Source of the DNA: Lautropia sp. SCN 69-89
Lineage (GTDB): Bacteria > Pseudomonadota > Gammaproteobacteria > Burkholderiales > Burkholderiaceae_E
NCBI GenBank assembly: GCA_001724855.1
Contig: MEED01000007.1
Location: forward strand, 1 to 38,874
Reading direction: 5' to 3'
Length of the DNA stretch: 38,874 bases
Below are positions 2,643 to 34,648 of the stretch, one piece after another. The notes beneath the pieces were generated by a model. The model ran no database searches and was not told the DNA's origin. It was given only the letters and a program-made list of their open reading frames with translations. The position numbers and the translations under genes are program-made. Numbering within the stretch: the stretch's first letter is position 1; the number at the start of each line of letters is the position of its first letter.

Positions 2643-3119
2643 TCAAGCGCGGAGTGGTGGCGCTCTTACCTGTGGACGGATTACGCCTGTGAAGTGCAGG
2701 GTGGCCGCCTGGCGTGGCCAATCGTGAGGCTGCCGGCGAATATCGACCGACGGTGCTGACACTGCCATGAGCAGCGCAACGAAGGCTACATGCTGGCCCG
2801 CATCGGACTTCTCGGGCGAGGCGACGACTGTCCTGCCCTCAACGCGAAGTGCGAGGACCGAATGGCCGCTGCCGATTCCCGGGCAATCCTCGACGTGCGG
2901 CGCATCTAGGGTGTGCGCGTCATGCACCTCGGCGAGGGCCACGCCATCGATACCGAAGTCATGGTGATGCGCATGCAGCGGTGCTCCTACGTGATCGACC
3001 ACCAGCAGCAACACCAGGACCAGTCGCGCCATCCATGCGAATGCGCGCACAACAGCGTGCGCTGGCGTAGCGTGCACCGTCGCTGTCGGAGATGGTGGCT
3101 GTTGGATTTCCATCGTCAC
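2643..3119 (-). CDS. small histidine-containing membrane/exported protein of the metal operon
   Basis: I do not recognise a named family. The 158-aa product has one strong hydrophobic segment (about 29-45, ARLVLVLLLVVDHVGA) followed at once by a His cluster (LHAHHHDFG) and scattered Asp/His residues (EVHDAHTLDAPHVEDCPGIG). This suggests a signal anchor with a metal-binding periplasmic part. Its place between a P-type ATPase and the adaptor/pump pair resembles the small CzcI-type proteins that precede czc structural genes, but this is analogy, not homology I can show. The start is GTG at 3119, overlapping the ATPase stop (GTGA); ATG two codons later (3113) is equally possible. The overlap supports translation as part of the operon. 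Confidence 0.55.
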   Translation of the reverse strand: MTMEIQQPPSPTATVHATPAHAVVRAFAWMARLVLVLLLVVDHVGAPLHAHHHDFGIDGVALAEVHDAHTLDAPHVEDCPGIGSGHSVLALRVEGRTVVASPEKSDAGQHVAFVALLMAVSAPSVDIRRQPHDWPRQAATLHFTGVIRPQVRAPPLRA

Positions 3120-11883: not shown

Positions 11884-13560
11884 ATGGCTCTCTCAGACTT
11901 GGTGATCAGGCAAGCCAAGATCACCGGAAAGGCGTACACCCTCCCCGACATCGACGGCCTTAGCCTCGCCGTCACCCCCATGGGCAACAAGAGCTGGCAC
12001 TTTCGCTACTACTGGCTAGGAAAGCAGAAGCGGATGTCGCTGGGCAACTACCCGGAGGTGTCCCTGCGCGATGCACGCGCTCTGCGCGACGAGGCGCGCG
12101 TCCTGGTGGCCAAGGACATCAATCCGCACCTGCACCGCAAGCAGAAGCGTGCCGCGGTCAAGCTCGCCGGTGAAAACACGTTCGAGGCGATCTACCAGAA
12201 GTGGCTGGCCCACCGCGAACTGAGCCTCAAGAAGGGCCGGCAGACCACACTCTCGATCCTGCCGCGCGTCTTCGCCAAGGACGTATTGCCGGCGCTGGGC
12301 AAGCGCTCGATCTACGACATCAAGCGGCCCGACCTGCTGGAAGTCATCGCCAAGATCGAGAAGCGCAAGGCGCTCTCCGTGGCCGAGAAGGTTCGCACCT
12401 GGTTCAACCAGTTGTTCCGCTATGCGCTGGTGATCGTGCCGGGCCTGGAGCAAAACCCGGCATCCGACCTCGACGTGGTGGCGGTCCCGCTGCCGCCGGT
12501 CAATCACAACCCGTTCCTGCGCATGGCCGATCTGCCGAAGCTGTTGCAGCGCCTGCGCAAGTACCGTGGACGCCTGCAGACCCAACTCGCCCTGCGCCTG
12601 CTGCTGCTGACGGGCGTGCGCACCGGCGAGTTGCGCCTGGCGACGCCGGATCAGTTCGACCTCGATCGCGGGCTCTGGATCATCCCACCGGATGTCGTGA
12701 AGCAGCTCCAGGTGGACATGCGCAAGAAGCGGCAACTGCCCACCGACGTGCCGCCCTACATCGTGCCTCTGTCGGTGCAGGCCATCGAGATCGCTCGCCA
12801 CATGCTGGAGCAATTCAAGCCGGCCCAGCACTACCTGTTCCGGCACGACAGCGAGATGAAGAAGCGCATGAGCGAGAACACGCTCAACAGCGCGCTCAAG
12901 CGCTTGGGCTACCGCGACCTGCTGACAGGACACGGCATGCGCGCCACGATGTCCACCGCACTCAATGAAATCGGCTACCCGAAGGTGTGGGTGGACGCGC
13001 AGCTCTCGCACGTCGATCCCAACAAGGTCAGCGCCACCTACAACCACGCCGAATACGTGGAGCAGCGCCGGCGCATGATGCAGGACTGGGCCGACCGGCT
13101 CGACCTCTTCGAGCAGAACATGGTCGAGGCAGCGAGCATGCCGCTCACGATCCGCCTGGAAGGCGTGCCCGTCGTCTCGGACGAGGAAGCGGCGGCAGCG
13201 CCTCCCGCAACCGCCGAGAAGGCGGCCGCGGCGCCGGTGCCGATGTTGATCGTCACGCAACCCGGTCACGCGAAGCCGTTGGTGTCCGCCGCAGCGCTTC
13301 GACTGCCCGCGGTCTCTTCGCCGCGTTCGGTGATGGAGCAGCCGCTCTCCGACATTCAGCGCGAGCGCATCGAACTCGTTGATGTCTTCGAGGCGCCCCA
13401 TAACCTCCCCGTCGTCGAGTTTGCGAAGATGGCCGGCAAGTCCCGCCGCTGGATCAGCTACGAGATCAAGGCAGGCAATCTGCTGGCGCTGCAGGTGGGC
13501 AACTGGTACAACAACCACGAGTACCATCACAGCGGCGTCCGCTATGTCAGCCCCGCTTAG
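11884..13560 (+). CDS. tyrosine recombinase/integrase, P4/ICEclc type, with C-terminal extension
   Basis: This 558-aa site-specific recombinase integrates and excises a genomic island. Residues 1-90 form the DUF4102 N-terminal arm-binding domain (WHFRYYWLGKQKRMSLGNYPE). About 95-200 is the core-binding SAM-like domain and about 205-400 the catalytic domain. Catalytic residues are visible: Arg246 (TGVRTGE), His350/Arg353 (HGMR), His376 (LSHVD) and Tyr386 (ATYNH). After it comes a 160-residue tail: an Ala/Pro-rich linker, then 503-558 with a small HTH-like unit (VVEFAKMAGKSRRWISYEI, KAGNLLALQVGN) resembling an excisionase or MerR-type DNA-binding fold. It lies just inside a tRNA-Gly att site. 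It appears intact. Confidence 0.92.
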   Translation: MALSDLVIRQAKITGKAYTLPDIDGLSLAVTPMGNKSWHFRYYWLGKQKRMSLGNYPEVSLRDARALRDEARVLVAKDINPHLHRKQKRAAVKLAGENTFEAIYQKWLAHRELSLKKGRQTTLSILPRVFAKDVLPALGKRSIYDIKRPDLLEVIAKIEKRKALSVAEKVRTWFNQLFRYALVIVPGLEQNPASDLDVVAVPLPPVNHNPFLRMADLPKLLQRLRKYRGRLQTQLALRLLLLTGVRTGELRLATPDQFDLDRGLWIIPPDVVKQLQVDMRKKRQLPTDVPPYIVPLSVQAIEIARHMLEQFKPAQHYLFRHDSEMKKRMSENTLNSALKRLGYRDLLTGHGMRATMSTALNEIGYPKVWVDAQLSHVDPNKVSATYNHAEYVEQRRRMMQDWADRLDLFEQNMVEAASMPLTIRLEGVPVVSDEEAAAAPPATAEKAAAAPVPMLIVTQPGHAKPLVSAAALRLPAVSSPRSVMEQPLSDIQRERIELVDVFEAPHNLPVVEFAKMAGKSRRWISYEIKAGNLLALQVGNWYNNHEYHHSGVRYVSPA

Positions 13561-20470: not shown

Positions 20471-20540
20471 GTGTCGTCTATGCCTTCCTGGTTACTTGCA
20501 CGCTGCGTGCCGTTGCCGAAAACGCGTCGCGTTGAGTCGT

Positions 20541-20943
20541 TCACAGCCGCACGCGCCGCAGGAGCTGCGCATTGACCGCCACGATGATCGTGCTCAGCGA
20601 CATCAGCACCGCGCCGACCGCCGGAGTGAGCAGCACGCCCCACGGCGCGAGCACGCCCGCCGCGAGCGGGATCGCGACGATGTTGTAGCCCGCAGCCCAC
20701 CACAGGTTCTGGATCATCTTGCGGTAGCTCGCGCGCGAGAGATTCACGATACGCGGCACGTCGCGCGGATCGCTGCGCACGAGCACGACGTCGCCGGCCT
20801 CGTGTTGCGGAACATCGACACGCTGTAGCCGGCGTGCTTGTCATGGGCGTCGCGCGCGTGTGCCCGCCCTCGTGCATGGGCGGCGCCGCTTCGGCATGCG
20901 TAGTGCGGGCGCCGTGCGGGCCGTGATCGGTCGTCGGTTTCTC
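20541..20943 (-). pseudogene. copB-like copper P-type ATPase remnant with most of the gene deleted
   Basis: The C-terminal 81 codons ([58 protein letters not shown]) are the last part of a copper-translocating ATPase. Upstream, in other frames, lie a His-rich start (SEKPTTDHGPHG, APPMHEGGH) and then [15 protein letters not shown], typical of the CopB N-terminus. EAGDVVLV follows directly. Thus some 550-600 codons including actuator, CPx and phosphorylation domains are missing, and frames shift at least twice. The remnant begins right after the thiolase stop, in the same transcription unit. Confidence 0.8.
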
Positions 20944-20952
20944 ACTCAGTCG

Positions 20953-22140
20953 TCACCGAACCGCTTCGAGCGCGAGTGCAACCCCTTGCCCCCCGCCTAT
21001 GCAAAGCGTCACCAGGCCACGGCGGACGCCGTCGCGTCGCATCGAATGCAGAAGCCGGGTGGTCAGCACCGCCCCCGTGGCGCCGATCGGGTGTCCATGC
21101 GCTATTGCGCCGCCCTCGACGTTCACAACCTCCTCCGATAAACCGAGTTCCCTGGTGAGCGCGAGCGCGATCGCCGCGAACGCCTCGTTGATTTCCGCTC
21201 GCTCGATGTCTGCAAGTTGCCAACCGGCTCGCTGCAGCGCCTGACGTACGGCTGGCAAGGGGCCGAGTCCGAACATGCCCGGCTCGACGGCCCCGACGCC
21301 GTACGCCACAAGGCGTGCCATCGGCTCCAGACCGCGTTTCTCGGCCCACGCGGCGTTGGCAACGATCAGCGCGGCCGCACCGGCGTTCAGGCCCGGAGCG
21401 TTGCCCGCAGTGATGGTGCCGTCGTTGCGGAAGGCCGGCTTCAACTTCGCGAGCGACTCGAGCGTCATATCGGGGCGGTTGTGTTCGTCCCGCTCGAAAA
21501 CGACGCGTCCCTTGCGCGTCGGGATTTCGACCGGCGCGATCTCCGCGTCGAACTTGCCCGCCGCCTGCGCGCCGCTGAATCGTGTTTGTGAACGCAGCGC
21601 CCAGCGATCCTGAGCCTCACGCGAGATCTCGAACTTCGAAACCAGGTCTTCGGTCACCCAGCCCGAATGCTGGCCACTGAACGCATCGTTCAGTCCGTCG
21701 CGCAGCATGCTGTCGTGGATCTGCGCGTCCCCCATCCGGTAGCCCCATCGCCCGCCGTTCATCAGGTACGGCGACTGATCCATGTTCTCCATGCCACCGG
21801 CGATCGCACACTGGACGAAACCGAGCATGACTTCCTGCGCTGCCGTCGCAATGGCTTGTGCGCCCGATCCGCATACACGATTCACCGTCATCGCGGGGAC
21901 TGCGTCTGCGATACCCGCCGCCATCGCGGCCTGGCGCGCGGGATTCATCTTCGCGCCGGCCTGAACGACCTGGCCCATGACCACCGTATCGATGTCATCG
22001 CCGTTCAGGTTCGCTCTCGAGAGCACCTCGCGAATCGCCATTGCACCGAGGTCGGTCGCGGGAACGTCTTTCAGCGCGCCGCCGTAGCCTCCGATCGCGG
22101 TGCGCACAGCTGCGCACAGGACCACTCCAGGATTCGACAT
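20953..22140 (-). CDS. acetyl-CoA acetyltransferase (thiolase)
   Basis: This 395-aa thiolase is of the biosynthetic/degradative class II type. The start at 22140 is preceded by AAGGAGCTTTCG; a longer frame upstream is not needed. Catalytic residues are visible: the acyl-carrying Cys in NRVCGSGAQA, the His in EINEAFAA and GGAIAHGHPIGATG regions, and the second Cys in CIGGGQG. It condenses two acetyl-CoA to acetoacetyl-CoA or the reverse. It heads the minus-strand unit with the copB remnant and DUF3141. Pairing with a PHA-synthase-like DUF3141 is suggestive, but no reductase (phaB) is present. Confidence 0.93.
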   Translation of the reverse strand: MSNPGVVLCAAVRTAIGGYGGALKDVPATDLGAMAIREVLSRANLNGDDIDTVVMGQVVQAGAKMNPARQAAMAAGIADAVPAMTVNRVCGSGAQAIATAAQEVMLGFVQCAIAGGMENMDQSPYLMNGGRWGYRMGDAQIHDSMLRDGLNDAFSGQHSGWVTEDLVSKFEISREAQDRWALRSQTRFSGAQAAGKFDAEIAPVEIPTRKGRVVFERDEHNRPDMTLESLAKLKPAFRNDGTITAGNAPGLNAGAAALIVANAAWAEKRGLEPMARLVAYGVGAVEPGMFGLGPLPAVRQALQRAGWQLADIERAEINEAFAAIALALTRELGLSEEVVNVEGGAIAHGHPIGATGAVLTTRLLHSMRRDGVRRGLVTLCIGGGQGVALALEAVR

Positions 22141-22252
22141 CGAAAGCTCCTTCGCCGCTGTACCGGGAAGCAACGGCAGGCACAAGACGAAGGCCCGGTG
22201 AATCGATTGTCCTTCCTCGACCCGGCCCTGAGATGACCCCGGGATTACTTCT

Positions 22253-22292
22253 ATGTAACCCACGCTTTGCATTACGGACATGTAACGCACGC
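22253..22292 (+). promoter_or_regulatory. direct repeat ATGTAAC-C/G-CACGC in divergent promoter region
   Basis: ATGTAACCCACGC (22253) and ATGTAACGCACGC (22280) are two copies 27 bp apart, differing at one base. They lie in the 277-bp region between the thiolase and the DUF2933 operon. The spacing is close to 2.5 helical turns. They may bind a shared regulator. No recognised regulator matches with confidence. Confidence 0.4.
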
Positions 22293-22417
22293 GTCATCTG
22301 ATCACCACTTCCTCAGCGTCATACTGGCGCTAGCGGAATCGAGAACGACGATCGAACGCGACGTATTCGTGCAGTCCCAGGCCCGGTCGATGAAATCAAG
22401 CAGCAGGAAAGGCAATC

Positions 22418-22687
22418 ATGTCGAACCGCTCACAACGAGATCCCGGTCGAGGCGAAAGCGGCCGACGTGCAGCCTCATGGGTGTTCTTCGGCTTCCTCGC
22501 CATCGGCGCCTTCTTCCTGTGGACCGAACATCGCGCGCATCTGCTGGGCTGGCTTCCCTTCCTACTGCTTGCGCTGTGTCCGCTGATGCACTTCTTCCAC
22601 GGGGGACATGGAGGTCATGGCGGCGGTAATTCCGGCTCGGACGCTTCGACGCGCTCTTCGTCGCAGCAACCGACACACAAGCACTGA
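22418..22687 (+). CDS. DUF2933 small membrane protein
   Basis: This 89-aa protein has two membrane helices (about 20-36 and 42-60) and the family-like run [34 protein letters not shown]. The C-terminus is His/Gly-rich and Ser-rich. DUF2933 proteins are often next to an isoprenylcysteine methyltransferase-like gene and copper genes, exactly as here. Metal binding by the HGGHGGHG tail is plausible. AGGAAAGG precedes the ATG. It is the first gene of a long operon. Confidence 0.85.
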
Positions 22688-22707
22688 ACACGCCAACGAG
22701 AACGAGC

Positions 22708-23367
22708 ATGTCCCACGACAACGTACCGGCCTATGGACTGTGGTCCCTGGTAGTCATCAATTCGCTGGTGTTCATCATCTTCGCCTTCAGCTTCGCCAAG
22801 CCGCAGTCGAGCCGCGACTGGCGCTCCTTCGGCGCGTTCTCCGGATTCTTGGTCGCGTTGTTCGCCGAGATGTACGGCTTTCCGCTGACGATCTATCTGC
22901 TGTCGGGTTGGCTGGGCTCGAAGTTCCCCGGAGTCGACTTTCTGTCGCACGATGCCGGCCACCTGCTCGAGATGATGTTCGGCTGGCGCACAAATCCGCA
23001 TTTCGGACCGTTTCACCTGTTGAGCGCGGTGTTCATCGGCGGCGGCTTCTGGCTTTTGTCGGCTTCGTGGACGGTGCTCTATTCGAGCCAACGCTCGGGA
23101 ACGCTGGCAACGACCGGGCCCTACGCGAGAATGCGTCATCCGCAATACGCCGGCTTCGTGCTGATCATGTTCGGCTTTCTGCTGCAGTGGCCAACGCTTC
23201 TCACGTTGGCGATGTTCCCGATCCTGTGCGTGATGTACCTGCGTTTGGCGCTTTCCGAGGAGCGCGAAGTCGAGCGGCGCTTTGGCGCGCAATGGCGTGA
23301 GTACGCGCAGCGTACCCCGCGCTTCTGGCCAAGGGTTGGCCCAATCGCCGAAGCAGGTTCCGCGTGA
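22708..23367 (+). CDS. isoprenylcysteine carboxyl methyltransferase (ICMT)-family membrane protein
   Basis: This 219-aa membrane protein has five to six helices. Its C-terminal half carries the ICMT/PEMT signature: [23 protein letters not shown], then [27 protein letters not shown], forming the SAM-binding region. The N-terminal half has the extra [13 protein letters not shown] segment. Bacterial members rarely have known substrates; they may methylate a membrane lipid or protein carboxylate. It lies 20 bp after DUF2933 and 16 bp before the phosphoketolase gene. Confidence 0.85.
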
Positions 23368-23383
23368 AAGGGAGACAACGAGA

Positions 23384-25900
23384 ATGAGCACGATCCCGAC
23401 CGATCGAACCGGGGATGTTTCCGACGGCTCCCCGCCATTCCCGTACCGTCACGAAGCAGGTGCCTCGCTGCCGACGCATGAAATGCACCGCCTCGCGGCA
23501 GCGGCGGCGAGGGCACGACTGCGCGACGAAGACTTCGCACGGTGGACGAAGGGTTTCGGTGCGATACGTCACGACGATCAGACGCAGTTGCGCGTTCGTC
23601 GCCTGGTGCACGAGGTGGCACTGGAGCGCGAGCCCGCTGATGCGTCTGCCGACGTGTGGCGACTCTTCGCCGCCGCCGACCGCCTCGCCAGCGCAGCGAT
23701 GTGGCTCGTCGTGCACATGAGCTATGCCCGGAAGGTACGACTCGACGGAGAGCCTGTACAAGCCGGTGATTTCAAGAAGACGCCCGAGGGGCACGTCGGC
23801 GGATCGCTGAACATGGTCCCCGCATACGTCGGTTATCTGCTCGCCAACGCGCTCACCGGGCGGACGCGTTCATGGCTGATGGGGCAGGGACACAGTGTTG
23901 CGGCCATCGAGGCCGTGAATGCGCTGACGAGCAACCTGCATCCCGAACAGTCAGCGCGCTACGACGTCTCCGATACGGGCCTTTCCCGCCTGTGCGCCGA
24001 TTTTTACTCGTACGCGATCGACGCCGACGGCGAACCGGGCACGCCGCTCGGCAGTCATGTCAATGCGCACACGGCCGGAGGTCTCATCGAAGGCGGATAT
24101 CTCGGTTTCGCCGAGCTTCAATACGTGCACATGCCGATGCCGGGCGAAACGCTCGTCGCTTTCCTGAGCGACGGTTCGTTCGAGGAGCAACGGGGTGCGG
24201 ACTGGGCTCCGCGCTGGTGGCGGGCGCAGGACACGGGGCTGGCGGTGCCGATCATGATCCTCAACGGCCGCCGCATCGAGCAGCGCAGCTCGATGGAACA
24301 GGATGGGGGCGTCGCCTGGTTCACCGATCATTTGCGCCTGAACGGCTTTGACCCGATCGTCATCGATGGCACCGATCCCGCTGCCTTTGCATGGGCCATC
24401 CTGGAGGCGGAAGCACGCCTGGCTGCGTGCGCGGCCGCCGCCCACGCGGGTGCGCTCGAATATCCCGCCGCCCTTCACTACACGATTGCGCAGGCCCCCA
24501 AGGGGTACGGATTCCCCGGCGCCGGGACGAATCTTTCGCACAACCTGCCGTTGGGCGCGAACCCTGCGCTCGACGAGCAGGCGCGAACCCGCTTCAACGA
24601 GGCGGCACGAAAACTCTGGGTGCCGCCGGACGAGCTCTCGCAGTCGCTGCGCCGATTGTCCAATCACGAGTCGCAACGGCGCCCGTTGGAGCGCGACCAC
24701 CCGCTCGCCGTGCGCGACGTTCGTTGCGAACCGGCCGAGCTGCCCTGGCGCGATGCGGATTCCTCAGCGACCCGATCGCCGATGAGCGCGCTCGACGACG
24801 CGTTCATCGCGCTCGCGCAAGCAAATCCGACGTTGCGCGTGCGGATCGGAAACCCCGATGAATTGCGCAGCAACGGCATGGCTCGCACGCTCGAGCACTT
24901 CCGGCATCGAGTGGCCGAGCCGGAAGCGAACGTGCCGGAAGCGGTCGACGGCGCAGTAATTACCGCGCTCAACGAGGAGGCGGTCGTCTGCGCGGCGCTC
25001 GCCAACAAGGCGGGGCTGAATCTCGTCGTCAGTTACGAAGCGTTTGCGGTGAAGATGCTTGGCGCCATGCGTCAGGAGATGATTTTCGCTCGCGGCCAGG
25101 CGGCGGCGGGACGCCCACCGCGCTGGCTTTCGGTGCCAATCGTCGTCAGTTCTCACACTTGGGAGAACGGCAAGAATGAGCTGTCGCACCAGGATCCGAC
25201 GTTATGCGAAGCGTGGATGGCCGAGCCCCCCGATCGTGCCCGGGTTGTATTTCCGCCCGACTGGAACGCGGCGCTCGCCTGCATGGATGCCTGCTACCGC
25301 ACTCAGGGCCAGATATGGGTGATGGTCGTGCCGAAGCGACCCGTGCCGAGTGTATTGAATGAGGCGCAGGCTCGGCGACTTGCCGCACAAGGAATGTTGC
25401 GCCTGGTCGGCTCTGGTGCGTCCGAAGAGAAGCTCGTTCTGGTGGCGGTCGGCTCGTACCAACTCGTCGAGGTGCTTCGTGCATCGAAACGGTTGGCGCA
25501 GCACGCCGTGGCGCATGCAGTGGTCGTCGTCATCGAGCCCGGCAGATTCAAGACGCCGCACGACAGCGCCCAGGCCGGCGCTACCCTGACGGACGACGAC
25601 CTCGCCGAGATGTTTCCCGAGCACAGCGACGCGCGGATCGTTGTCTCGCACACGAGGCCTGAGCCGATCGCCGGCGCGCTTCGCCGGATCGACACCGGTC
25701 CGCGACGAACCTCGTACCTTGGCTTCATCAACCGCGGCGGAACGCTGGACACGTTCGGCATGTCGTTCGCGAATCGATGCACCTGGGCCCATGTGCTCGC
25801 GCGAGCGGCGGAGACGATGGGCGTTCCGTCGGAGAACTGGCTGGCGGCGCCCGAATGGGCTGCCGTGCAGGGGCACGGCGACCCGGAAACCTTGCGTTGA
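23384..25900 (+). CDS. divergent phosphoketolase/transketolase-family TPP enzyme
   Basis: This 838-aa protein fits the length and order of phosphoketolases. Its N-terminal TPP domain has GHVGGSLNMVPAYVGYL, GQGHSVAAIEAVNAL, GSHVNAHTAGGLIEGGYLG and SDGSFEEQRGADWAPRWWRAQ. A central domain carries NEEAVVCAALANKAGLNLVVSYEAFAVKMLG, and the C-terminal domain has GTLDTFGMSFANRCTWAHVL. Known Xfp proteins have GDGE(A/S)ETG where this has SDGSFEEQ, and GHWGT where this has GHVGG, so it is a distant branch, sometimes annotated as xylulose-5-phosphate 3-epimerase. The expected reaction is xylulose-5-P or fructose-6-P plus Pi to acetyl-P. The ATG at 23384 has AAGGGAGA upstream. Substrate is untested. Confidence 0.82.
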   Translation: MSTIPTDRTGDVSDGSPPFPYRHEAGASLPTHEMHRLAAAAARARLRDEDFARWTKGFGAIRHDDQTQLRVRRLVHEVALEREPADASADVWRLFAAADRLASAAMWLVVHMSYARKVRLDGEPVQAGDFKKTPEGHVGGSLNMVPAYVGYLLANALTGRTRSWLMGQGHSVAAIEAVNALTSNLHPEQSARYDVSDTGLSRLCADFYSYAIDADGEPGTPLGSHVNAHTAGGLIEGGYLGFAELQYVHMPMPGETLVAFLSDGSFEEQRGADWAPRWWRAQDTGLAVPIMILNGRRIEQRSSMEQDGGVAWFTDHLRLNGFDPIVIDGTDPAAFAWAILEAEARLAACAAAAHAGALEYPAALHYTIAQAPKGYGFPGAGTNLSHNLPLGANPALDEQARTRFNEAARKLWVPPDELSQSLRRLSNHESQRRPLERDHPLAVRDVRCEPAELPWRDADSSATRSPMSALDDAFIALAQANPTLRVRIGNPDELRSNGMARTLEHFRHRVAEPEANVPEAVDGAVITALNEEAVVCAALANKAGLNLVVSYEAFAVKMLGAMRQEMIFARGQAAAGRPPRWLSVPIVVSSHTWENGKNELSHQDPTLCEAWMAEPPDRARVVFPPDWNAALACMDACYRTQGQIWVMVVPKRPVPSVLNEAQARRLAAQGMLRLVGSGASEEKLVLVAVGSYQLVEVLRASKRLAQHAVAHAVVVVIEPGRFKTPHDSAQAGATLTDDDLAEMFPEHSDARIVVSHTRPEPIAGALRRIDTGPRRTSYLGFINRGGTLDTFGMSFANRCTWAHVLARAAETMGVPSENWLAAPEWAAVQGHGDPETLR

Positions 25901-25906
25901 ACCACC

Positions 25907-26539
25907 ATGGCCGATTCCGCGAAACCTCCCGTTCCAGCGAAACCCATCGATCGACCCGATGCTTCGCGCCGCCGCATCACCTGGATGACGACCGGCGTCG
26001 GTGGCGCCGGAGTGGTCGCTGCCGGCGTTCCGTTCGTTGCGTCGTTCGCGCCGAGCGAACGCGCGAAGGCGGTCGGCGCGCCGGTTACGGCGTCGATCGC
26101 CGGCCTGCGGGAAGAGAAACTGATGACCGTCGAATGGCGGGGAAAGCCGGTATGGATCCTTCGACGCAGTCCCGCTCAGCTGGAAAGCCTGCAGTCGCAG
26201 GAATTGCACGCATTGCTGGTCGATCCGTTGTCGCACCGCGCCGAACAGCAGCCTCCCTATGCCTCGAATCCGTATCGTTCGATTCGTCCGGAGATCGGCG
26301 TCTACGTGGCGATTTGCACGCATCTCGGCTGTATTCCCACGTACCGCCCGGACGTCAACGCGCCCGACCTTCGTCCCCGCTGGCCGGGCGGCTTCTTCTG
26401 TCCGTGTCACGGCTCGTATTTCGATCTCGCCGCCCGCGTCTATCGCAACGTGCCCGCGCCGACGAATCTGGTCGTTCCTCCGTACCGCTTCGTCTCCGAC
26501 GCCGTCATCGAAATCGGCGTAGATCCGAAATCCACTTGA
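25907..26539 (+). CDS. Rieske iron-sulfur subunit of ubiquinol-cytochrome c reductase type
   Basis: The 210-aa protein has SRRRITWM and a hydrophobic helix (about 27-48), the membrane anchor/Tat-like signal of bacterial bc1 Rieske proteins. The 2Fe-2S ligand motifs follow, CTHLGCIP and CPCHGSYFD (two Cys and two His, plus the disulfide Cys pair). It would pass electrons from quinol to cytochrome c1. No cytochrome b or c1 gene is adjacent, which is unusual, so it may substitute for the chromosomal subunit or serve another complex. It starts 6 bp after the phosphoketolase stop. Confidence 0.92.
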   Translation: MADSAKPPVPAKPIDRPDASRRRITWMTTGVGGAGVVAAGVPFVASFAPSERAKAVGAPVTASIAGLREEKLMTVEWRGKPVWILRRSPAQLESLQSQELHALLVDPLSHRAEQQPPYASNPYRSIRPEIGVYVAICTHLGCIPTYRPDVNAPDLRPRWPGGFFCPCHGSYFDLAARVYRNVPAPTNLVVPPYRFVSDAVIEIGVDPKST

Positions 26540-26546
26540 GGTAGTG

Positions 26547-27908
26547 ATGCAACTCGCCTTCCATGGCGCTGCCGGAACGGTCACCGGCTCCCGGACGCTG
26601 GTGACGCACGGGGGCCGCAATGTTCTCGTCGACTGCGGTCTGTTCCAGGGTTACAAGAACCTGCGGTTGATGAACTGGGACCCTTTCCCGTTCGACCCGG
26701 GCGCGCTTGAAGCGGTCGTCCTGACGCACGCGCATCTCGATCATTCGGGAGCTCTTCCTCTTCTGTTCAAGCGGGGTTTCACCGGCCCCGTGTTCGCGAC
26801 GCCGGCGACCATCGAGCTTTGCGAGATCCTGCTGCGCGACAGCGGGCGGCTGCAGGAAGAGGATGCCGAGTACGCCAATCGGCGCAAGACGTCGAAACAC
26901 CGACCCGCATTGCCGCTGTACACGGAAGACGATGCGCAGCGATCCCTACGCCTGTTCCGAGCGCTGCCGTTCGAGGAGGAGCGAGAGATTGCGACCGGCA
27001 TTCGCGTGCGGCTGCAGGGCGCGGGGCACATTCTCGGCGCCGCCTCGGTCCGGCTTTCGGCGAACGCCACCTCCGTACTGTTCTCGGGCGACCTCGGTCG
27101 ACCCGATGACCCGATCATGAATGCACCGGCCCCGATCGGAAAGGCGGATTACGTGGTCGTCGAGTCGACTTATGGAGATCGCCTGCACGAAGCGCAGGAT
27201 GTCGAGGCGGTCCTCGGCGACACGATACGACGCACGGCCGCACGCGGCGGGACCGTGCTCATCCCGGCCTTCGCCGTCGGTCGCGCGCAGTCGCTGCTCT
27301 ACGCGATCTATCGCCTGAAGCAAAGGCGCGCCATTCCCGACCTTCCGGTTTTTCTGAACAGCCCGATGGCGATCGACATGACCGACATTTACCACCGGCA
27401 TCGAGCGGAGCATCGATTATCCGACGCCGAGTGCGCCGGCATGTGCAAAGTGGCGACGATGGTGAGGAGCGTCGAAGAATCGCGTGCGCTCAACGCGATG
27501 ACGTATCCGGCCGTAATCGTCTCGGCCAGTGGAATGGCCACCGGGGGGCGCGTCCTGCATCATCTGAAGACACTCGCGCCCGATCGCCGCAACACGGTCG
27601 TCTTTGCGGGGTACCAGGCGGCAGGAACGCGCGGCGCACGGATGGTCGCTGGCGAGAGCAGCATCCGGATCCACGGACAGGACATCCCCGTGCGTGCAGA
27701 GGTGATGAGCCTGGAGGGCATTTCCGCGCACGCCGACGCCCGTCAGATCGTCCAGTGGCTCGCCACCGCGCAGCGTCCACCGCGCCGGGTATACCTGACC
27801 CATGGCGAACCGGGGCCAGCCGACACGCTGCGCCAGCGTATCGAACGCGAACTCGGCTGGGATGCCTACGCGCCGCGGCTCGGCCAGACGATCGAGGTCG
27901 AATCGTGA
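26547..27908 (+). CDS. metallo-beta-lactamase/beta-CASP hydrolase, probable RNA-processing nuclease
   Basis: This 453-aa protein has the MBL motifs [12 protein letters not shown] (HxHxDH), [10 protein letters not shown] and SGDLGRPDD for two zinc ions, then ESTYGDR. The beta-CASP domain has [16 protein letters not shown] and [11 protein letters not shown] with the late catalytic-site His. Bacterial relatives (of the TTHA0252/RNase J-like type) cut or trim RNA. A GTG one codon upstream is an alternative start. Its stop overlaps the start of the phosphorylase gene (GTGA), implying coupled synthesis. Confidence 0.9.
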
Positions 27909-29446
27909 GCGTGCGGCCTCTCGATACGGTCGACGTGCCCTCGTCGGACGCGTTGCGTCTTCGAACCCTCGGCATCGATACGCACGACGAGCATGTCGTC
28001 TACATGCACCGCGACTGCCACGTTTGCCGCGCCGAGGGCTTCACTGCACTGGCACGCGTCGAAGTAAGGCTGCACGAGCGGCGAATCGTCGCTACGCTGA
28101 ACGTCGTCGACTCCGATCTCGTCGGTGTGCATGAAGCGGGACTATCAACCAGCGCGTGGCGGGCGCTGCAAGCGAGCGATCGGGAGTCGGTGTGGGTATC
28201 GCACGCGCCCACGCTCGACTCGCTGAGTGCGTTGCGCTCCAAGATCTACGGCAACCGCCTCGATGCTCGCGCGTTCGCGTCCGTCGTCGGCGATATCGCC
28301 TCGGGCAATTACGCGGATGTGCACATCGCCGCGTTCCTCAGTGCGTGCGCCGGCGGGCGCATGTCTCTGGAGGAGACCGTCGACCTCACCCGGGCGATGG
28401 TCGGCGCCGGTGACATCCTTTCGTGGGGGAAGACTCCGATCGCGGACAAGCACTCGGTCGGCGGTCTGCCCGGCAACCGCACCACGCCGATCGTGGTCGC
28501 GATCGTGGCTGCGGCCGGGCTGACGATTCCCAAGACGTCGTCGCGCGCGATCACTTCGCCGGCAGGCACGGCCGACGTCATGGACGTGCTTACCCGCGTC
28601 GACCTCGACACGCGCGAGATGCGCGAGGTCGTCGACCGCGAAGGCGGTTGCCTCGTCTGGGGCGGCGCGATCAATCTGAGCCCGGCCGACGACATCCTGA
28701 TCCGGGTTGCACGCCCGCTGGACATCGACGGCGACGCGCAGCTTGTCGCCTCCGTGTTGTCGAAGAAGATCGCCGCCGGTGCGAGCCACGTCCTGATCGA
28801 CATGCCCGTCGGTCCGACGGCAAAGGTGCGCAGCGCCAGCGACGCGGATCGGCTCCAGGTGCTGCTCGAGCAGGTTGCCGCCGCTTTCGGGCTGCAGACA
28901 AGCGTGCAGCGTACCGATGGCAATCAGCCGGTCGGTCGGGGAATCGGGCCGGCACTCGAGGCGCGCGACGTCCTCGCGGTGTTGCGTCGCAGCCCCGATG
29001 CACCGGCGGACTTGCGCAGTCGGGCGCTGAAGCTGGCCGCCGAGGTGCTCGAACTGTGCGGTGACAGCCCTGCGGGAACCGGCGAAGCACGAGCATCCAG
29101 CCTGCTCGACAGCGGTGCGGCATGGGCGAAGTTCCGTGCGATCTGCCAGGCACAAGGCGCGTTTCGCGAGCCCGATGTCGCGCCGTTGATCGACCCGATA
29201 CCGGCGGGTCGGGTCGGACGCATCACCGCCATCGATTGCCGCCGGCTCGCCCGCGTCGCGAAACTGGCGGGAGCGCCGAATGTTCCGGTGGCCGGTCTGG
29301 AGCTGCATGTCCGACTCGGTGACCTCGTGCAGCGCGATACGCCGCTGCTCACGCTGCATGCGCGAGCACCTGGGGAGCTGGCCTACGCGAAGCGGTACCT
29401 CGCCTCGCATCCGGTCGTCTCGCTCGGCCCAGTGGAGGCACCATGA
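27905..29446 (+). CDS. thymidine phosphorylase-family protein, AMP phosphorylase-like long form
   Basis: This 513-aa protein belongs to the archaeal-type thymidine/AMP phosphorylases. An extra N-terminal domain of about 90 residues, absent from DeoA, precedes the catalytic part: [35 protein letters not shown] (phosphate/nucleotide loop), [18 protein letters not shown] and [14 protein letters not shown]. In archaea the long form phosphorolyses AMP, CMP or UMP to base plus ribose-1,5-bisphosphate. Bacterial members are annotated as putative thymidine phosphorylase. The start is GTG overlapping the upstream stop; its own stop overlaps the PRPP-synthetase start. Substrate specificity (nucleoside versus nucleotide) is undecided. 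Confidence 0.88.
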
Positions 29447-30354
29447 ACCCGGTCATTCTGGCGATGCCGGGTAACGAGCGCGTGGCCGATGCGCTTGCCG
29501 CTGTGCTTAGCTTCGATCGAGGCGCTGCCAGCGTGCGACGCTTTCCGGACGGTGAATCGCACGTCCGGGTGGAGTCTCCGCTCGAGCATCGCCATGCGCT
29601 GATCGTATGCACGCTCGACCGACCGGACGACAAGCTCGTGGCGCTGCTGCTGCTTGCCTCAGCGGCGCGCGACAGCGGGGCGCGCTCGATCGGCCTGGTG
29701 GCGCCGTACCTTGCCTATATGCGCCAGGACCACCGCTTTCACCCCGGCGAAACGATCAGTACACGACATTTTGCCGAATGGATTTCGCGCCGGTTCGACT
29801 GGCTCGTTACGGTCGATCCGCACCTGCATCGGATCAAGGAGCTGTCCGAGGTATACACGATCCCGACTCGCGTCGTGCATGCTGCCGACAGCATTGCCCG
29901 CTGGGTCGGTTCCGAGGTCGAGCGGCCCCTTCTCGTGGGTCCCGACGAGGAAAGCAATCAGTGGGTGGCCGATGTCGCGCAGCGCGCCGGCGTGCCGTTC
30001 ACCGTGCTCGAGAAGACGCGTCGCGGCGATCGCGACGTGGAGGTGTCGGTGCCGGATGTCGCCCGATGGCGCAGCCACACCCCGGTGCTGGTCGACGACA
30101 TCGTGTCGACCGCCCGGACGATGATCGAAACGGTTCGTCACCTGCGGCAGGCGATGACTGAGCCGCCCGTGTGCGTGGGCGTTCATGCGATCTTCGCCGG
30201 TGCTGCGTTCGACGACCTCAGGCGCGCTGGCGCGGGAACGATCGTCAGTTGCGACACGATCGCCCATCCGTCGAATCGCATCGAACTCAGTGCTGCGATC
30301 GCCGACGGCGTGCGCGCTCTGATGCCGACCTCGTTCCGGGAGATCTCGCCATGA
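29443..30354 (+). CDS. ribose-phosphate pyrophosphokinase (PRPP synthetase) family protein
   Basis: This 303-aa protein has the N-terminal and C-terminal phosphoribosyltransferase folds of Prs. Key parts are [32 protein letters not shown] (the flexible loop, normally RQDR/RKDR), VDPHLHRI and the PRPP loop [14 protein letters not shown] (usually VDD.VDTAGT). These changes place it in a divergent branch. The housekeeping Prs makes PRPP from ribose-5-P and ATP; this copy may use a product of the upstream phosphorylase. It shares 4-bp overlaps with both neighbouring genes, so the three-gene block MBL-phosphorylase-Prs is coupled. Confidence 0.88.
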
Positions 30355-30611
30355 CCCCGCTTCGCGCCGGATCCACGCTTGCCATCACGGTCGCAGTCTT
30401 CTATTTCGCCTGCGCGCTGATCTGGACACTGGCGCCACAAGCCTCGCTGACGTGGATGAACAGCCTTTTCCACGGGCTCGACTTCACGACCATGATGCGG
30501 CCGCGCGCGTTCACCTGGGGCGGCTTTCTCTATGCAATCGTCGTCCTGGCGATCTCGGGGCTCGCGCTCGGCGCCTTCTACAACTGGCTGGCTTCGCGGC
30601 TGAATGTGTAG
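30351..30611 (+). CDS. DUF5676-like small membrane protein
   Basis: This 86-aa protein has two membrane helices (about 9-27 and 58-78) separated by TWMNSLFHGLDFTTM, and ends AFYNWLASRLNV. This fits DUF5676 membrane proteins in length and pattern. The ATG overlaps the PRPP-synthetase stop (ATGA). Function unknown; such proteins occur near copper and stress genes. Confidence 0.75.
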   Translation: MTPLRAGSTLAITVAVFYFACALIWTLAPQASLTWMNSLFHGLDFTTMMRPRAFTWGGFLYAIVVLAISGLALGAFYNWLASRLNV

Positions 30612-30638
30612 CCGCCGCGGAGCGCCTGGAATGTACGA

Positions 30639-32276
30639 ATGAATGCGGGCGAACTGGCCCGCCTTCGGGAGATCGCGCGGGTAGCGGTCGCCAAAGGTTG
30701 GAGACACTACGCCGAGCAACTCGGCTTCCGGGCCGACCGAGGCGATCGCTCCTCGAGGTCGGCAAGCGACGCAACCCGCCTGCGCGAGGCGCTCGAGGAG
30801 CTGGGGCCGACTTTCGTCAAGTTCGGCCAGATGCTCTCGCAGCGCGAGGATCTCTTCCCGGACGCGTTCGTGGCGGAGTTGCGCGGGCTGCAGGACCGAG
30901 TCGGATCGTTCCCGGCCGAAGTTTCAAGACGGATCATCGAAGACGAGACCGGGCGCACGATCGGCGAGTTGTTTAGCCGTTTCAAGGACGAACCGATGGC
31001 TGCGGCATCGATGGCGCAGGTGCACTGCGCAGTGCTGCCCGACGGAACGGACGTGATCGTCAAGGTGCAGCGCCCCGATCTCGAGCGGACCGTCGAGGCC
31101 GACATTGCCGTCCTGAAGCGGCTCGTGCGCATGCTCTCCGGATTGCTTCCCGCTCTTCGCGCACTGAATCTGGCGGAGCTGGTGGACGAGTTCTCCGTCA
31201 CGCTGCGAGGCGAGCTGGACTTCGAGCAGGAGGCGCGCAATGCCGAGCGCTTCGCGGAGCTCAACCGCGGCGAGCCCCTCGTGTACGTGCCCCGGATTTT
31301 CTGGCACGCCACCACCCGTCGCGTGCTCACGATGGAGCACAGCACCGGTCAGCGAGCCGATGCGCCTCACGGCGCGAGCGAGGACCCGCGCGCCCTGGCG
31401 CAGTCGCTCATGCGCGTCTTTCTGGCTCAGGTCTTCGAGCAGGGCGTCTTCCATGCGGACCCGCATCCGGGGAACGTCTTCGTTCTGCCCGATGGTCGGC
31501 TGTGCTTTCATGATTTCGGTGCGATCGGCGAGTTGTCGCCCCGCGTGCAAGAGAGCCTGCGGCAGCTGTTTCTCGCTGTGATGGCGCGCGATCCGGATTG
31601 GGTGGCAAGCGCCTATATCGGCATGGGGGGTGCCAGCGCCGAACTGGACCGCGCAGCATTCGTCAGCGACCTCTCCGCTGCGCTCGATCGCTACTATCGC
31701 GCCTCGGGAGCGGGGCGCCATTCGTTCGGCGCCATCATTCACGAGTTCATTGGGCTGGGTCGCAGGCATCATATCCGGCTGTTGCGCGAGACTACTCTGC
31801 TGATGCGCGCGTTCGCGGAGCTGGAAAGCCTCGTTCAGCGGCTCGATCCGCAGTTCAGTTCGCTTGCGGCCTTCCAGGCGTATAGCGGCCGACTCGTCGC
31901 GCGCGCGTTGCGGCCCGAAGCCGGCGCAGCGCAGTTTGCGAAGTTGTACCGGTCGCTCGTGACGGTCCGCGAACTTACCGATGAGGCGCCGATCGCACTT
32001 CGCCGCCTCGCCGGTCGCCTCGAACGCGGCGAACCGCTGTTCGATATTCGCCACCAGAGCGGCCGGTCCGTCGAGCGCCACTTGCTGCAAGCGAGCAATC
32101 GGCTCGCCTTCGCGATGATCATCGCTTCGATCGTCGTCGGCTCGGCGCTTCTTCTCGCGTCCCATGCGGGCCCACATTGGGAAGGCCTCCCGGTGCTCGG
32201 CATCGTCGGCTTCGTTGCTGCCGCTGCGCTGGGCCTTGCGTGGGCAGTGCTCGCTCTGCGTTCGAGAGAGCTCTGA
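30639..32276 (+). CDS. UbiB/ABC1/AarF-family atypical protein kinase-like ATPase
   Basis: This 545-aa protein has the ABC1 hallmarks: GPTFVKFGQMLSQREDLFP (the KxGQ motif), AAASMAQVHCA (Ala-rich replacement of the glycine loop), VIVKVQRP (Lys), ELDFEQEARNAERF, FHADPHPGNVF (catalytic loop) and FHDFGAIG (metal-binding DFG). Two C-terminal helices (about 483-540) anchor it to the membrane. Family members support ubiquinone biosynthesis as ATPases. Its operon includes a Rieske protein, so a role in quinone supply under stress is plausible. It begins 27 bp after the previous gene. Confidence 0.92.
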   Translation: MNAGELARLREIARVAVAKGWRHYAEQLGFRADRGDRSSRSASDATRLREALEELGPTFVKFGQMLSQREDLFPDAFVAELRGLQDRVGSFPAEVSRRIIEDETGRTIGELFSRFKDEPMAAASMAQVHCAVLPDGTDVIVKVQRPDLERTVEADIAVLKRLVRMLSGLLPALRALNLAELVDEFSVTLRGELDFEQEARNAERFAELNRGEPLVYVPRIFWHATTRRVLTMEHSTGQRADAPHGASEDPRALAQSLMRVFLAQVFEQGVFHADPHPGNVFVLPDGRLCFHDFGAIGELSPRVQESLRQLFLAVMARDPDWVASAYIGMGGASAELDRAAFVSDLSAALDRYYRASGAGRHSFGAIIHEFIGLGRRHHIRLLRETTLLMRAFAELESLVQRLDPQFSSLAAFQAYSGRLVARALRPEAGAAQFAKLYRSLVTVRELTDEAPIALRRLAGRLERGEPLFDIRHQSGRSVERHLLQASNRLAFAMIIASIVVGSALLLASHAGPHWEGLPVLGIVGFVAAAALGLAWAVLALRSREL

Positions 32277-32304
32277 ATGCCTGGCGCAGCGACCGAAGCG
32301 CTAT

Positions 32305-32640
32305 TCAGGAGCCGAGTGCGTGCACCGGTCCGTAGAGGCGGTGTTTCGCCTCATGCTCGCCCCTGCTTTGGCCGGCAGCGGCGCGCTGTACCTGCTCGCG
32401 GGTCAACGTCGATGCGATCGGCTTCTCCGCGCCCGGAAACTCGAACGAGAGCGGAATACTCCCCGCGTTCTGCGCAGCCTGCAAATCGGCGATCACTTGC
32501 GCGCGCGTCGTCTTGCTCGGGGTCACATGGACGAACTGGTAGCCGATCTCGTTGTTCACGAACTCCACGCCGCTATCGGCGAAGGCGGGCACGCTCACCG
32601 ACAACACCGCTGCGGCGAACAACAAGGCTTTCGAGGACAT
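32305..32640 (-). CDS. DUF4148 exported protein
   Basis: The 111-aa product has a signal peptide (MSSKALLFAAAVLSVSVPAFA-DS) and the DUF4148-type core SGVEFVNNEIGYQFVHV, then KTTRAQVIADLQAAQNAG, common in Burkholderiales as small periplasmic proteins of unknown role. AAAGGAGT lies eight bases upstream of the ATG. It is on the opposite strand to both neighbours and shares a promoter region with ftsH. Confidence 0.8.
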   Translation of the reverse strand: MSSKALLFAAAVLSVSVPAFADSGVEFVNNEIGYQFVHVTPSKTTRAQVIADLQAAQNAGSIPLSFEFPGAEKPIASTLTREQVQRAAAGQSRGEHEAKHRLYGPVHALGS

Positions 32641-32702
32641 TTCGCTACTCCTTTCAGGTTTCGTGGTTCGCAGCGTCTGCTGCTGCGAGCGATGCGTTTT
32701 CG

Positions 32703-32731
32703 TGCATCACGGCTATCACTGTAGTGATGCA
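32703..32731. promoter_or_regulatory. inverted repeat TGCATCAC-N13-GTGATGCA, candidate operator
   Basis: An 8-bp perfect inverted repeat lies between the divergent DUF4148 and ftsH genes. A second overlapping palindrome, ATCACT-GT-AGTGAT (32715-32728), shares one arm. Three ATCAC half-sites in this arrangement suggest a dimeric regulator rather than a terminator, as no T-tract follows. Confidence 0.5.
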
Positions 32732-32827
32732 TCCCCAACGGCAATGTTTCACGACGATTACATTTCCTTCAGGTAGCTGCCCAACGACCGGATTCAGTTT
32801 CGACCGCTGAGCGCGGACAGGTGAGCC

Positions 32828-34648
32828 ATGGAAAAGAAACAGCAGTTTTCGATCTGGTATTTGTTCGCGGCGTTGCTGCTGATCGTCGCGCTGCAGGACT
32901 ATCTCGCGCCGCCGCACGTCGACAATCTGCCCTACAGCGATTTCAAGTCGTTCCTGCGCTCGGGGAAGATCACGGAGGTTGCGCTCGGCGAGGCCGTGAT
33001 CACGGGAACGCTCTCGAACGACGGCGCTGGGGAAGATCTGTCGCCCAAGACCGCCGAGCGCCTTGCAACGCTATCGAAAGGACCGCACCCGTTCACCACG
33101 GTGCGGGTGGATGACCGTGCGCTGGTGGGCGACCTGGAAGCGGCGAAAGTACCGTTTGCGGGTCGTGTCGAAAGCAAGTGGCTGCCTGCGCTCCTTTCCT
33201 GGGTGATTCCGGCGCTCGTCTTCTTTGCCCTGTGGAGCTTCCTCATCAAACGCATGGCCGGCTCGCAAGGCATGGGGGGATTCATGTCGGTCGGCAAGAG
33301 CAAGGCCAAGGTGTACATGGAGACCGATACCAAAGTTACATTCGACGACGTGGCAGGGGTGGACGAAGCGAAGGAGGAACTGCAGGAAGTAATCGGCTTT
33401 CTCAAGGATCCCGCGCGGTACGGGCGCTTGGGCGGTCGCGTTCCCAAGGGCGTTCTGCTCGTGGGTCCACCGGGCACCGGCAAGACGCTTCTCGCGCGCG
33501 CCGTGGCCGGGCAGGCCGGTGTGCCGTTCTTCTCGATCAGTGGCTCGGAATTCGTCGAGATGTTCGTAGGCGTGGGCGCAGCACGGGTTCGCGATCTGTT
33601 CGAGCACGCGCGCGGCGCATTTCCAATGGGCGGCCACGACGAGAAGGAACAGACGCTCAACCAGCTCCTCTCCGAGATGGATGGGTTCGACCCCAGTGCG
33701 GGGGTCGTGCTGCTCGCCGCCACCAACCGCCCAGAGGTACTCGATCCGGCGCTGCTACGGGCAGGTCGTTTCGATCGCCAGGTGCTCGTCGACCGTCCCG
33801 ACCGCAAGGGTCGCGTGCAGATCCTCGAGGTGCATCTGAAGAAGGTGAAACTCGCCTCCGACGCCGATCCGGAGAAGATCGCCGCGCTCACACCGGCCAA
33901 TCTCGTCAACGAGGCGGCGCTACTCGCCACGCGACGAGGAGCGGATGCGGCGGGACTCGATGATTTCACGGCGGCGATCGAGCGTATCGTTGCCGGCCTC
34001 GAGAAGCGGAACCGGCTGCTGAACCCGCTCGAACGCAAGGTCGTCGCATATCACGAGATGGGTCACGCGCTCGTCGCTCTCTCGCTGCCCGGGGTGGACC
34101 GGGTGCACAAGATCTCCATCATTCCACGCGGTATCGGCGCGCTGGGTTACACCATTCAGCGACCCACCGAGGACCGGTTTCTCATGACTCGGGAAGAGCT
34201 CGAGAACAAGATGGCCGTTCTGCTCGGCGGACGCGCGTCCGAGCATCTGGTCTTCGGCCACCTTTCCACCGGAGCGGCGGACGATCTGGCGAAGGCCACC
34301 GACATTGCCCGTAGCATGGCCATGCGCTACGGGATGGAAGCGAAGCTCGGGCACGTATCGTACGAAGGGGAAGGCGCACGCTTCCTGGACATTCCCCAAG
34401 GGATGAGTCGCCGACACGATTTCAGCGAGGAGGTTGCGCGGGAGATCGACCGCGCTGTCAAGGCGATTCTCGATGCGGCGTTCGCGAACGCAATGCGGGT
34501 TCTCGCAGCGCATCGGTCGATTCTGGACCGGGGGGCGGCGCTGCTGCTGGAGAAGGAAACGCTGGACGAACAGAATCTGCGCGAGTTGACAGGCGCGGTC
34601 GGGTCTCCGGAGAGTGCGGAGCAGCCGGCGCAGCGGCAAACCGCTTGA
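32828..34648 (+). CDS. ftsH: FtsH-type AAA+ zinc protease with in-frame deletions (no Walker B)
   Basis: This membrane ATP-dependent protease homologue has 606 aa. It has TM1 (9-27), a periplasmic part, TM2 (about 119-142), Walker A GPPGTGKT (213-220), the pore loop [10 protein letters not shown], the SRH ([21 protein letters not shown]) and the zinc site HEMGH (409-413). FEHAR (to 262) joins directly to [13 protein letters not shown], so about 19 residues carrying the Walker B hhhhDE box, normally between them, are missing. At 356/357 LTP joins ANLVNEAA, so the seven residues GFTGADL are missing too. Both gaps keep the frame. Without the Walker B acidic pair ATP hydrolysis should fail. It belongs to the subfamily found in stress islands. 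Confidence 0.88.

Follow-up and report, generated by a model that had tools for sequence, protein, structure and literature searches.

A PRPP synthetase-like protein with a rewritten pyrophosphate loop, paired with a putative nucleoside monophosphate phosphorylase in a nine-gene predicted operon of Lautropia sp. SCN 69-89

The nucleoside monophosphate (NMP) shunt, or pentose bisphosphate pathway, of Thermococcus kodakarensis includes a long-form phosphorylase, formerly misannotated as a thymidine phosphorylase, that converts all natural NMPs, with CMP favoured, to ribose-1,5-bisphosphate (R15P) (PMC8376864, PMC9700705; here and below, statements on published work refer to the accessible parts of the papers cited). 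We analysed a 38,874-nucleotide contig of Lautropia sp. SCN 69-89 (MEED01000007.1; hereafter the window, contig C7 of a 3.8 Mb source genome across 70 contigs), in which a predicted nine-gene operon encodes another member of this long-form family, predicted likewise to yield R15P, followed by a homologue of phosphoribosyl pyrophosphate (PRPP) synthetase (Prs). Unlike in the archaeal shunt, the constant partner of the phosphorylase is here the Prs homologue, and no R15P isomerase above the TIGR00511 cut-off was found in any of the 24 sampled genomes that carry the pair. The homologue shares with the described PRPP synthetase classes (PMC13252144, PMC4363470) the fold, the adenine contacts and the catalytic Lys/Arg, but differs from them in a GPDxE(S/A)..W loop that replaces SPDxGG..R.

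The pairing was examined in two samples. In 200 genomes of the phylum, with family calls by the NF005537 (Prs homologue) and NF003338 (phosphorylase) cut-offs, both families were found in an identical set of 24 genomes, at 25 loci each, one genome having two copies of both. Phosphorylase and Prs genes are adjacent at 24 of the 25 loci (the window and 23 of the 24 others), and the nucleotide-breakdown core that an earlier note had proposed for this DNA is highly conserved. At the exceptional locus, L030, a beta-CASP metallo-beta-lactamase (MBL) gene and a divergent phosphoketolase-family (XFP2) gene sit between the two; L030 and L044 are two phosphorylase-Prs loci within one genome, G154. The second sample comprised the best 80 of 585 candidate loci recruited by the phosphorylase alone, which collapse to 62 clusters at 85% identity owing to near-duplicates. 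Here, Prs lies in the flank of 70 loci, on the same strand in all 70 and at most 400 bp away in 67, and MBL flanks 56 of the 80. The phosphorylase-Prs pair thus forms the core, which the MBL often joins, and the other genes are an accessory stress set.

The Prs homologue belongs to the distinct subfamily NF005537 (430 bits, cut-off 322). The top match of its AlphaFold2 model (pLDDT 91) is the PRPP synthetase 3mbi, with a TM-score of 0.86, and the 50 structure matches listed are all Prs. We compared 94 subfamily members, namely the window copy, 24 loci of the genome sample and 69 of the 80 phosphorylase loci (only Prs matches above 200 bits were entered, and a 110-bit piece at L058 was left out), with a canonical set of 30 Prs loci, from which 12 short translations and two out-of-frame ones were removed, so that 16 were counted. 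E38, R94, K191 and R193 are invariant in the subfamily (94/94), as are H127 and D219. By motif, K191/R193 correspond to K194/R196 of human PRS1, which are conserved across all three Prs classes (PMC4363470), and E38/R94 to the adenine contacts E39/R96 (PMC13252144). The loop SPDxGGxxR, by contrast, is rewritten to GPDxE(S/A)xxW, with E170 and W174 in 94/94 members and S171 in 92/94, against G, R and G, respectively, in 16/16 canonical Prs. We take SPDxGG to be the pyrophosphate-binding loop, corresponding to D171-G174 of human PRS1. The H-x-D/E-Q motif, whose D/E and Q are present in 16/16 canonical Prs, reads H-L-H-R in the subfamily (H129 and R130 in 94/94), and archaeal Prs retain the first Gly of the loop (APDKGA, APDRGA, SPDDGG).

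Twelve later Prs loci were picked by hand: eight with scores of 167-211 bits, three of 260-295 bits and the canonical copy of the source genome. The E loop is present in all seven with a phosphorylase neighbour, and SPDxGG in all five without one (judged on a few kb), including the two other Prs of the source genome. In total, the GPDxE(S/A) loop occurs in 101/101 phosphorylase-linked copies, among which the 94 members and the seven later ones may overlap, possibly representing the same species, and in 0/21 other copies; the E loop thus goes with phosphorylase linkage. In a tree, 45 sampled members of the 94 form one clade (support 0.957), the placement of which beside archaeal enzymes has a support of only 0.368. 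Judging from these residues, the homologue is probably not an ordinary PRPP synthetase, and this phosphorylase-linked subfamily with its rewritten pyrophosphate loop is the main interest of the locus. The source genome also encodes a canonical Prs (401 bits, contig C44) and a third Prs-like gene, L183 (193 bits, C15:57873-58814), in a 674-aa open frame with the loop SPDPGG and no phosphorylase in the 9 kb examined around it.

The phosphorylase passes NCBIfam models named 'putative thymidine phosphorylase' with 665 and 604 bits. It is of the long form, with the N-terminal domain present and the model aligned over positions 2-484 of 500, and carries AMPpase-type motifs, among them GxPGN[RK]T. 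The nearest solved structures are 4ga5 (322 bits; its title is also 'putative thymidine phosphorylase') and 4ga4 (308 bits), both of which we take to be the AMP phosphorylase of T. kodakarensis, and the best pyrimidine nucleoside phosphorylase (PyNP) scores 120 bits. In a comparison of 81 phosphorylases, 30 of the positions with at least 97% conservation are T. kodakarensis-like and PyNP-unlike (four of them are gaps in PyNP), compared with seven positions of the reverse kind. The operon enzyme is thus likely to be an NMP phosphorylase.

Our preferred reading, to which we assign a probability of roughly 0.38, is that the operon centres on a bacterial module for NMP breakdown that acts in three steps. 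The long phosphorylase would probably convert NMP and phosphate (Pi) to base and R15P. With no isomerase over the cut-off in the 24 phosphorylase-Prs genomes and PhnN over its cut-off in only four of them, another sink for R15P is wanted. Prs joins O1 of ribose-5-phosphate (R5P) to the beta-phosphate of ATP, and AMP leaves; an analogous attack on ADP instead of ATP would yield R15P and AMP, and the acidic E170, at the place expected for the second phosphate of the transferred group, would fit a donor with a single phosphate. Since its neighbour should make R15P, and since isomerase hits over the cut-off are absent, PhnN is rare and RuBisCO has no match in 9 of the 24 genomes, we tentatively propose as the second step, the one that the earlier note lacked, that the Prs homologue transfers a single phosphate in the reaction R15P + AMP <-> R5P + ADP, which would clear R15P without an isomerase and conserve its phosphate as ADP. 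Finally, R5P could pass through pentose-phosphate enzymes and, where present, phosphoketolase, giving acetyl phosphate and ATP, for which an acetate kinase is encoded elsewhere in the source genome; the MBL probably supplies the RNA fragments. In isolation, free energies favour R15P formation, so that the breakdown direction would have to be driven by an irreversible reaction, for example that of phosphoketolase. The broader hypothesis, which we regard as doubtful in its full extent, is that NF005537 is a reversible, ADP-forming R15P:AMP phosphotransferase that arose from a PRPP synthetase via the loop rewrite, and that many Pseudomonadota and some Bacteroidota combine it with the NMP phosphorylase into an NMP pathway that needs no isomerase, obtaining energy from RNA during oxygen limitation.

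The same fold, adenine contacts and catalytic Lys/Arg would also suit a working PRPP synthetase with an odd loop, such that NMPs are split and PRPP is made for base salvage, and the database names, ribose-phosphate diphosphokinase or pyrophosphokinase, say as much. We consider this unlikely: all 101 linked copies studied have the altered pyrophosphate loop, a canonical Prs is already encoded in the source genome, and the pairing with an R15P-forming enzyme would be left unexplained. Recapture of the ribose as PRPP, suggested in the earlier note, accordingly finds no support in the loop. The single-phosphate reaction might instead run in reverse, with R5P + ADP giving R15P + AMP and R15P + base then giving NMP + Pi, a PRPP-free base rescue at low energy charge. 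This scheme shares all the sequence evidence of the breakdown reading and is favoured by the free energies mentioned above, whereas the RNase-like MBL at 56/80 loci and the phosphoketolase-family genes at 27/80 suit breakdown better, and we rate it as quite unlikely.

Improbable, in our estimate, is a route as in the archaeal shunt, in which an unrecognised or MtnA-like isomerase would act on R15P and its product would pass to RuBisCO, the Prs homologue having a separate role. RuBisCO is encoded in 15 of the 24 genomes, including the source genome, and isomerase-family matches below the cut-off occur in 16, but the remaining nine genomes yield no RuBisCO match, none has an isomerase over the cut-off, and the isomerase-family gene of the source genome reads as MtnA. 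Equally improbable is a regulatory role with weak catalysis, comparable to that of mammalian PAP39/41, reported negative regulators of PRS1 (PMC4363470), in which the homologue would adjust the phosphorylase or the genuine Prs in response to AMP or ADP: its strict co-occurrence with the phosphorylase across the 200 genomes would fit, but K191, R193, D219 and H127, kept in 94/94 members, point to catalysis, and with the catalytic residues intact we rank this reading as a rival only.

The nine open reading frames (ORFs) of the operon and the rewritten loop are located in the window as follows.

22418-22687, forward strand: DUF2933 small membrane protein (PF11666, 75 bits)
22708-23367, forward strand: ICMT/PEMT-type membrane methyltransferase (PF04191/PF04140)
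23384-25900, forward strand: divergent phosphoketolase-family protein, XFP2 (XFP, 134 bits)
25907-26539, forward strand: Rieske iron-sulfur protein, bc1 type (TIGR01416, 197 bits, cut-off 97)
26547-27908, forward strand: beta-CASP MBL, probable ribonuclease (Beta-Casp 125 bits, RMMBL 63 bits)
27905-29446, forward strand: long-form phosphorylase, probable NMP phosphorylase (NF003338, 665 bits)
29443-30354, forward strand: Prs-fold enzyme of subfamily NF005537 (430 bits, cut-off 322)
29938-29964, forward strand: rewritten pyrophosphate loop of the Prs homologue, GPDEESNQW, residues 166-174
30351-30611, forward strand: DUF5676 protein with two transmembrane segments (PF18926, 55 bits)
30639-32276, forward strand: UbiB/ABC1 atypical kinase (PF03109, 244 bits)

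Six of these nine annotated kinds, names rather than sequences being compared, occur in Bradyrhizobium diazoefficiens, where they are distributed over three units instead of one operon. All three belong to the FixK2 box-associated units with reduced expression in fixK2 mutants at 0.5% O2 (PMC9104804, Table 2): bll3117-bll3116-bll3115 (phosphorylase-Prs-MBL), a predicted operon with a FixK2 box at -74; bll2518-bll2517 (phosphoketolase-acetate kinase); and bsl7992-bll7991-bll7990 (DUF2933-ICMT-hypothetical). Deletion of fixK2 lowered bll3115 30.6-fold and bll3117 6.6-fold, bll3116 being listed only as an operon member (PMC9104804), and in microoxia the proteins rise by log2 values of 2.1 (phosphorylase), 4.4 (Prs), 2.9 (MBL) and 4.3 (phosphoketolase) (PMC6515984, Table 2). 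The accessible text of these two papers proposes no function for the genes. A 50-gene low-oxygen cluster, the lxa locus of Burkholderia cenocepacia, also has an MBL protein, BCAM0300, which rises 23.9-fold between early and late infection isolates, and holds a polyhydroxybutyrate (PHB) enzyme, universal stress proteins and a heat shock protein (PMC6127331). The accessible part of that paper names no phosphorylase or Prs in lxa, to which the window is likened by description, not gene by gene.

In contrast to the B. diazoefficiens units, the window operon has no FNR/FixK box upstream: none of the form TTGAY-N4-RTCAA was found at 0-1 mismatch near 22300-22418, and a relaxed TTGA-N6-TCAA scan found nothing ahead of the operon either. 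Two FNR sites with one mismatch elsewhere in the window are at chance level. With near-duplicates removed (62 loci, 1.04 Mb), the FNR box occurs 30 times at spacing 4, compared with 2-11 times at twelve other spacings between 0 and 12, and all 80 loci hold 36 boxes against 6.5 expected under a first-order model. Low-oxygen control of this kind of gene set is likely and, for the window copy, unproven. The respiratory-stress setting proposed in the earlier note agrees with the published FixK2 and microoxia data for Bradyrhizobium; the lack of a box ahead of the window operon weakens it for this copy.

Several observations weigh against the breakdown reading and its low-oxygen setting. The FNR boxes are held by just 18 of the 62 loci, and only three lie within 200 bp before an MBL, phosphorylase, Prs or XFP2 gene. 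Nine of the 80 phosphorylase loci have no Prs match in the flank, and a tenth, L109, has only a Prs piece at a contig end; no replacement enzyme for Prs was seen at the nine. The phosphorylase fails the AMP phosphorylase equivalog TIGR03327 (446.7 bits, cut-off 535). At the position corresponding to PRS1 K99, 58/94 members have a basic residue (K or R); a loss of ATP cleavage is therefore not evident, and we dropped this position as a second lesion. An extra Arg/His in the R5P loop, R225, was dropped as a subfamily marker, as unlinked paralogues vary there too. The conversion of R15P to ribulose-1,5-bisphosphate by a promiscuous isomerase would be another route, given the RuBisCO genes in 15/24 genomes and the weak isomerase-family matches in 16/24. 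According to a 2026 preprint (PMC13252144), the major Prs classes retain the universally conserved catalytic residues; the preprint defines new bacterial classes, and its main text does not contain the word 'phosphorylase'. Our literature search, outside of which most subscription papers lie, returned no activity for any subfamily member; it also returned no account of the phosphorylase-Prs pair as a pathway, nor of the loop change.

The name 'ribose-phosphate diphosphokinase' is probably wrong for these proteins in 24 of the 200 sampled genomes. If the altered loop has the meaning that it suggests, a textbook Prs fold would have been adapted to transfer a single phosphate. Bacteria that lack the archaeal isomerase would then own a separate way to use R15P, and genes induced by oxygen loss in published data would gain a testable job.

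The layout given in the earlier note was reproduced in full: nine ORFs on the forward strand at 22418-32276, with gaps of at most 28 bp and three 4-bp overlaps (in order, 20, 16, 6, 7, -4, -4, -4 and 27 bp). From this spacing we infer that the nine genes are co-transcribed. An alternative GTG start of the MBL gene is found at 26544, and the next gene downstream, encoding FtsH, starts 551 bp after the operon. A scan of 20500-33000 found no sigma-70-like promoter, and terminator-like sites there are not enriched (9, compared with 7.5 in shuffles, standard deviation 2.8). Pfam and NCBIfam matches are consistent with all nine gene names of the earlier note, with three corrections: the phosphoketolase is divergent, the phosphorylase misses the AMP phosphorylase equivalog cut-off, and the Prs is of a distinct subfamily. 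The Rieske sequence shows the ligand motif CTHLGC...CPCHGS, and the UbiB/ABC1 gene scores under the UbiB equivalog cut-off (351 vs 488). Overall, the observation made in that note is confirmed, and its interpretation is partly supported.

The best NCBIfam score of XFP2 is 138 bits, the cut-offs of six models being 777-1518, and its C-terminal domain XFP_C is under the Pfam cut-off (20.2 vs 23.4). Its predicted fold (pLDDT 82) best matches phosphoketolases (TM-score 0.70-0.74), and among its matches in the Protein Data Bank (PDB) the first 20 are phosphoketolases, followed by transketolases. Compared with canonical phosphoketolases (3ai7, 6gua, 8io8), XFP2 shares the fold and most catalytic residues, but is only 20-23% identical to five canonical XFP and has changed pocket residues. 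The window copy keeps the equivalents of H64, H97, H320, S440, E479, Y501, N549 and H553 (Bifidobacterium longum numbering), presumably with the thiamine diphosphate-binding (ThDP) and catalytic roles that these residues have in the B. longum enzyme. In the substrate pocket, H548->K, H480->E and Q546->N are fixed in 20/20 copies; position R442 is not conserved and is G in the window copy. By sequence, XFP2 is a divergent phosphoketolase paralogue and a second copy in the genome, which also has a canonical phosphoketolase (296 bits). The acetate kinase that the earlier note did not see in the window is encoded elsewhere in the genome (303 bits). Plasmid relatives of XFP2 are labelled 'xylulose 5-phosphate 3-epimerase' in RefSeq. 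Genes of the XFP family with 146-154 bits, near the XFP2 scores (135-139), are present in G023, G058, G062, G138, G146 and G174, genomes without the phosphorylase-Prs pair.

For the MBL, the nearest solved structure is Ribonuclease TTHA0252 (265 bits), RNase J reaching only 27 bits, and the protein is a probable relative of TTHA0252/CPSF-type ribonucleases. Given this resemblance, the trimming of RNA to NMPs proposed in the earlier note is a guess.

XFP2 flanks 22/80 phosphorylase loci (10/62 clusters), canonical XFP 5/80 and any phosphoketolase-family gene 27/80; where MBL and Prs both lie within 1.5 kb of the phosphorylase, such a gene is in the flank at 23 of 46 loci. The triplet is thus found with phosphoketolase elsewhere, so that the refutation which the earlier note had set on its absence does not apply. 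Among the 200 genomes, a phosphoketolase-family gene is present in 9/24 phosphorylase-Prs genomes and 23/176 others (Fisher p 0.005, uncorrected for kinship). As a fixed partner, phosphoketolase was rejected, since any XFP occurs in just nine of the 24: it recurs near the loci, but the copy is divergent and not obligatory. ICMT is in the flank of 24/80 loci (10/62 clusters), UbiB of 13/80 (4/62 clusters), a DUF2933-like gene of 17/80, DUF5676 of 6/80 and Rieske of 2/80. Rieske, UbiB, DUF5676 and DUF2933 are loose companions, which weakens the link to a quinone/Rieske module made in the earlier note. The wider gene grouping is not unique to the window, because a Sulfitobacter plasmid carries seven of the same kinds, namely Rieske, DUF5676, phosphorylase, Prs, XFP2, DUF2933 and ICMT, all inside 13.5 kb. 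In Ralstonia pickettii SSH4, two separate phosphorylase loci, L058 and L059, are located on one contig.

The phosphorylase was found on 115 plasmids, 46 of which are typed as conjugative and 15 as mobilizable. On a Variovorax plasmid, DUF3141, DUF2933, ICMT, MBL, phosphorylase and Prs genes are followed, two genes on, by a metal ATPase and a major facilitator superfamily (MFS) transporter, and the window also has a DUF3141 gene, MFS genes and apparent parts of a metal ATPase. We propose that the module travels in low-oxygen/metal-stress islands, both chromosomal and plasmid-borne. Very similar islands with ICMT, MBL, phosphorylase, Prs, UbiB and XFP2 are present at L084, L086, L092, L096, L097 and L098, in Achromobacter, Hydrogenophaga, Pseudomonas rhodesiae, Pigmentiphaga and two metagenome-assembled genomes (MAGs) of Burkholderiales; their phosphorylases form one cluster at 85% identity, and these islands were probably transferred horizontally in recent times. 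In the window, a tyrosine integrase with an arm-binding domain (11884-13560) would fit an integrated island. The small ORF at 20541-20786 resembles the C-terminal end of a metal P-type ATPase, its homologue at L173 lying inside an annotated ATPase, and is probably a gene remnant. Another metal P-type ATPase, at 3116-4998, is seemingly split into two ORFs, 3116-4045 (HAD domain) and 4090-4998, and adjoins MFS, HlyD and metal-sensitive repressor genes.

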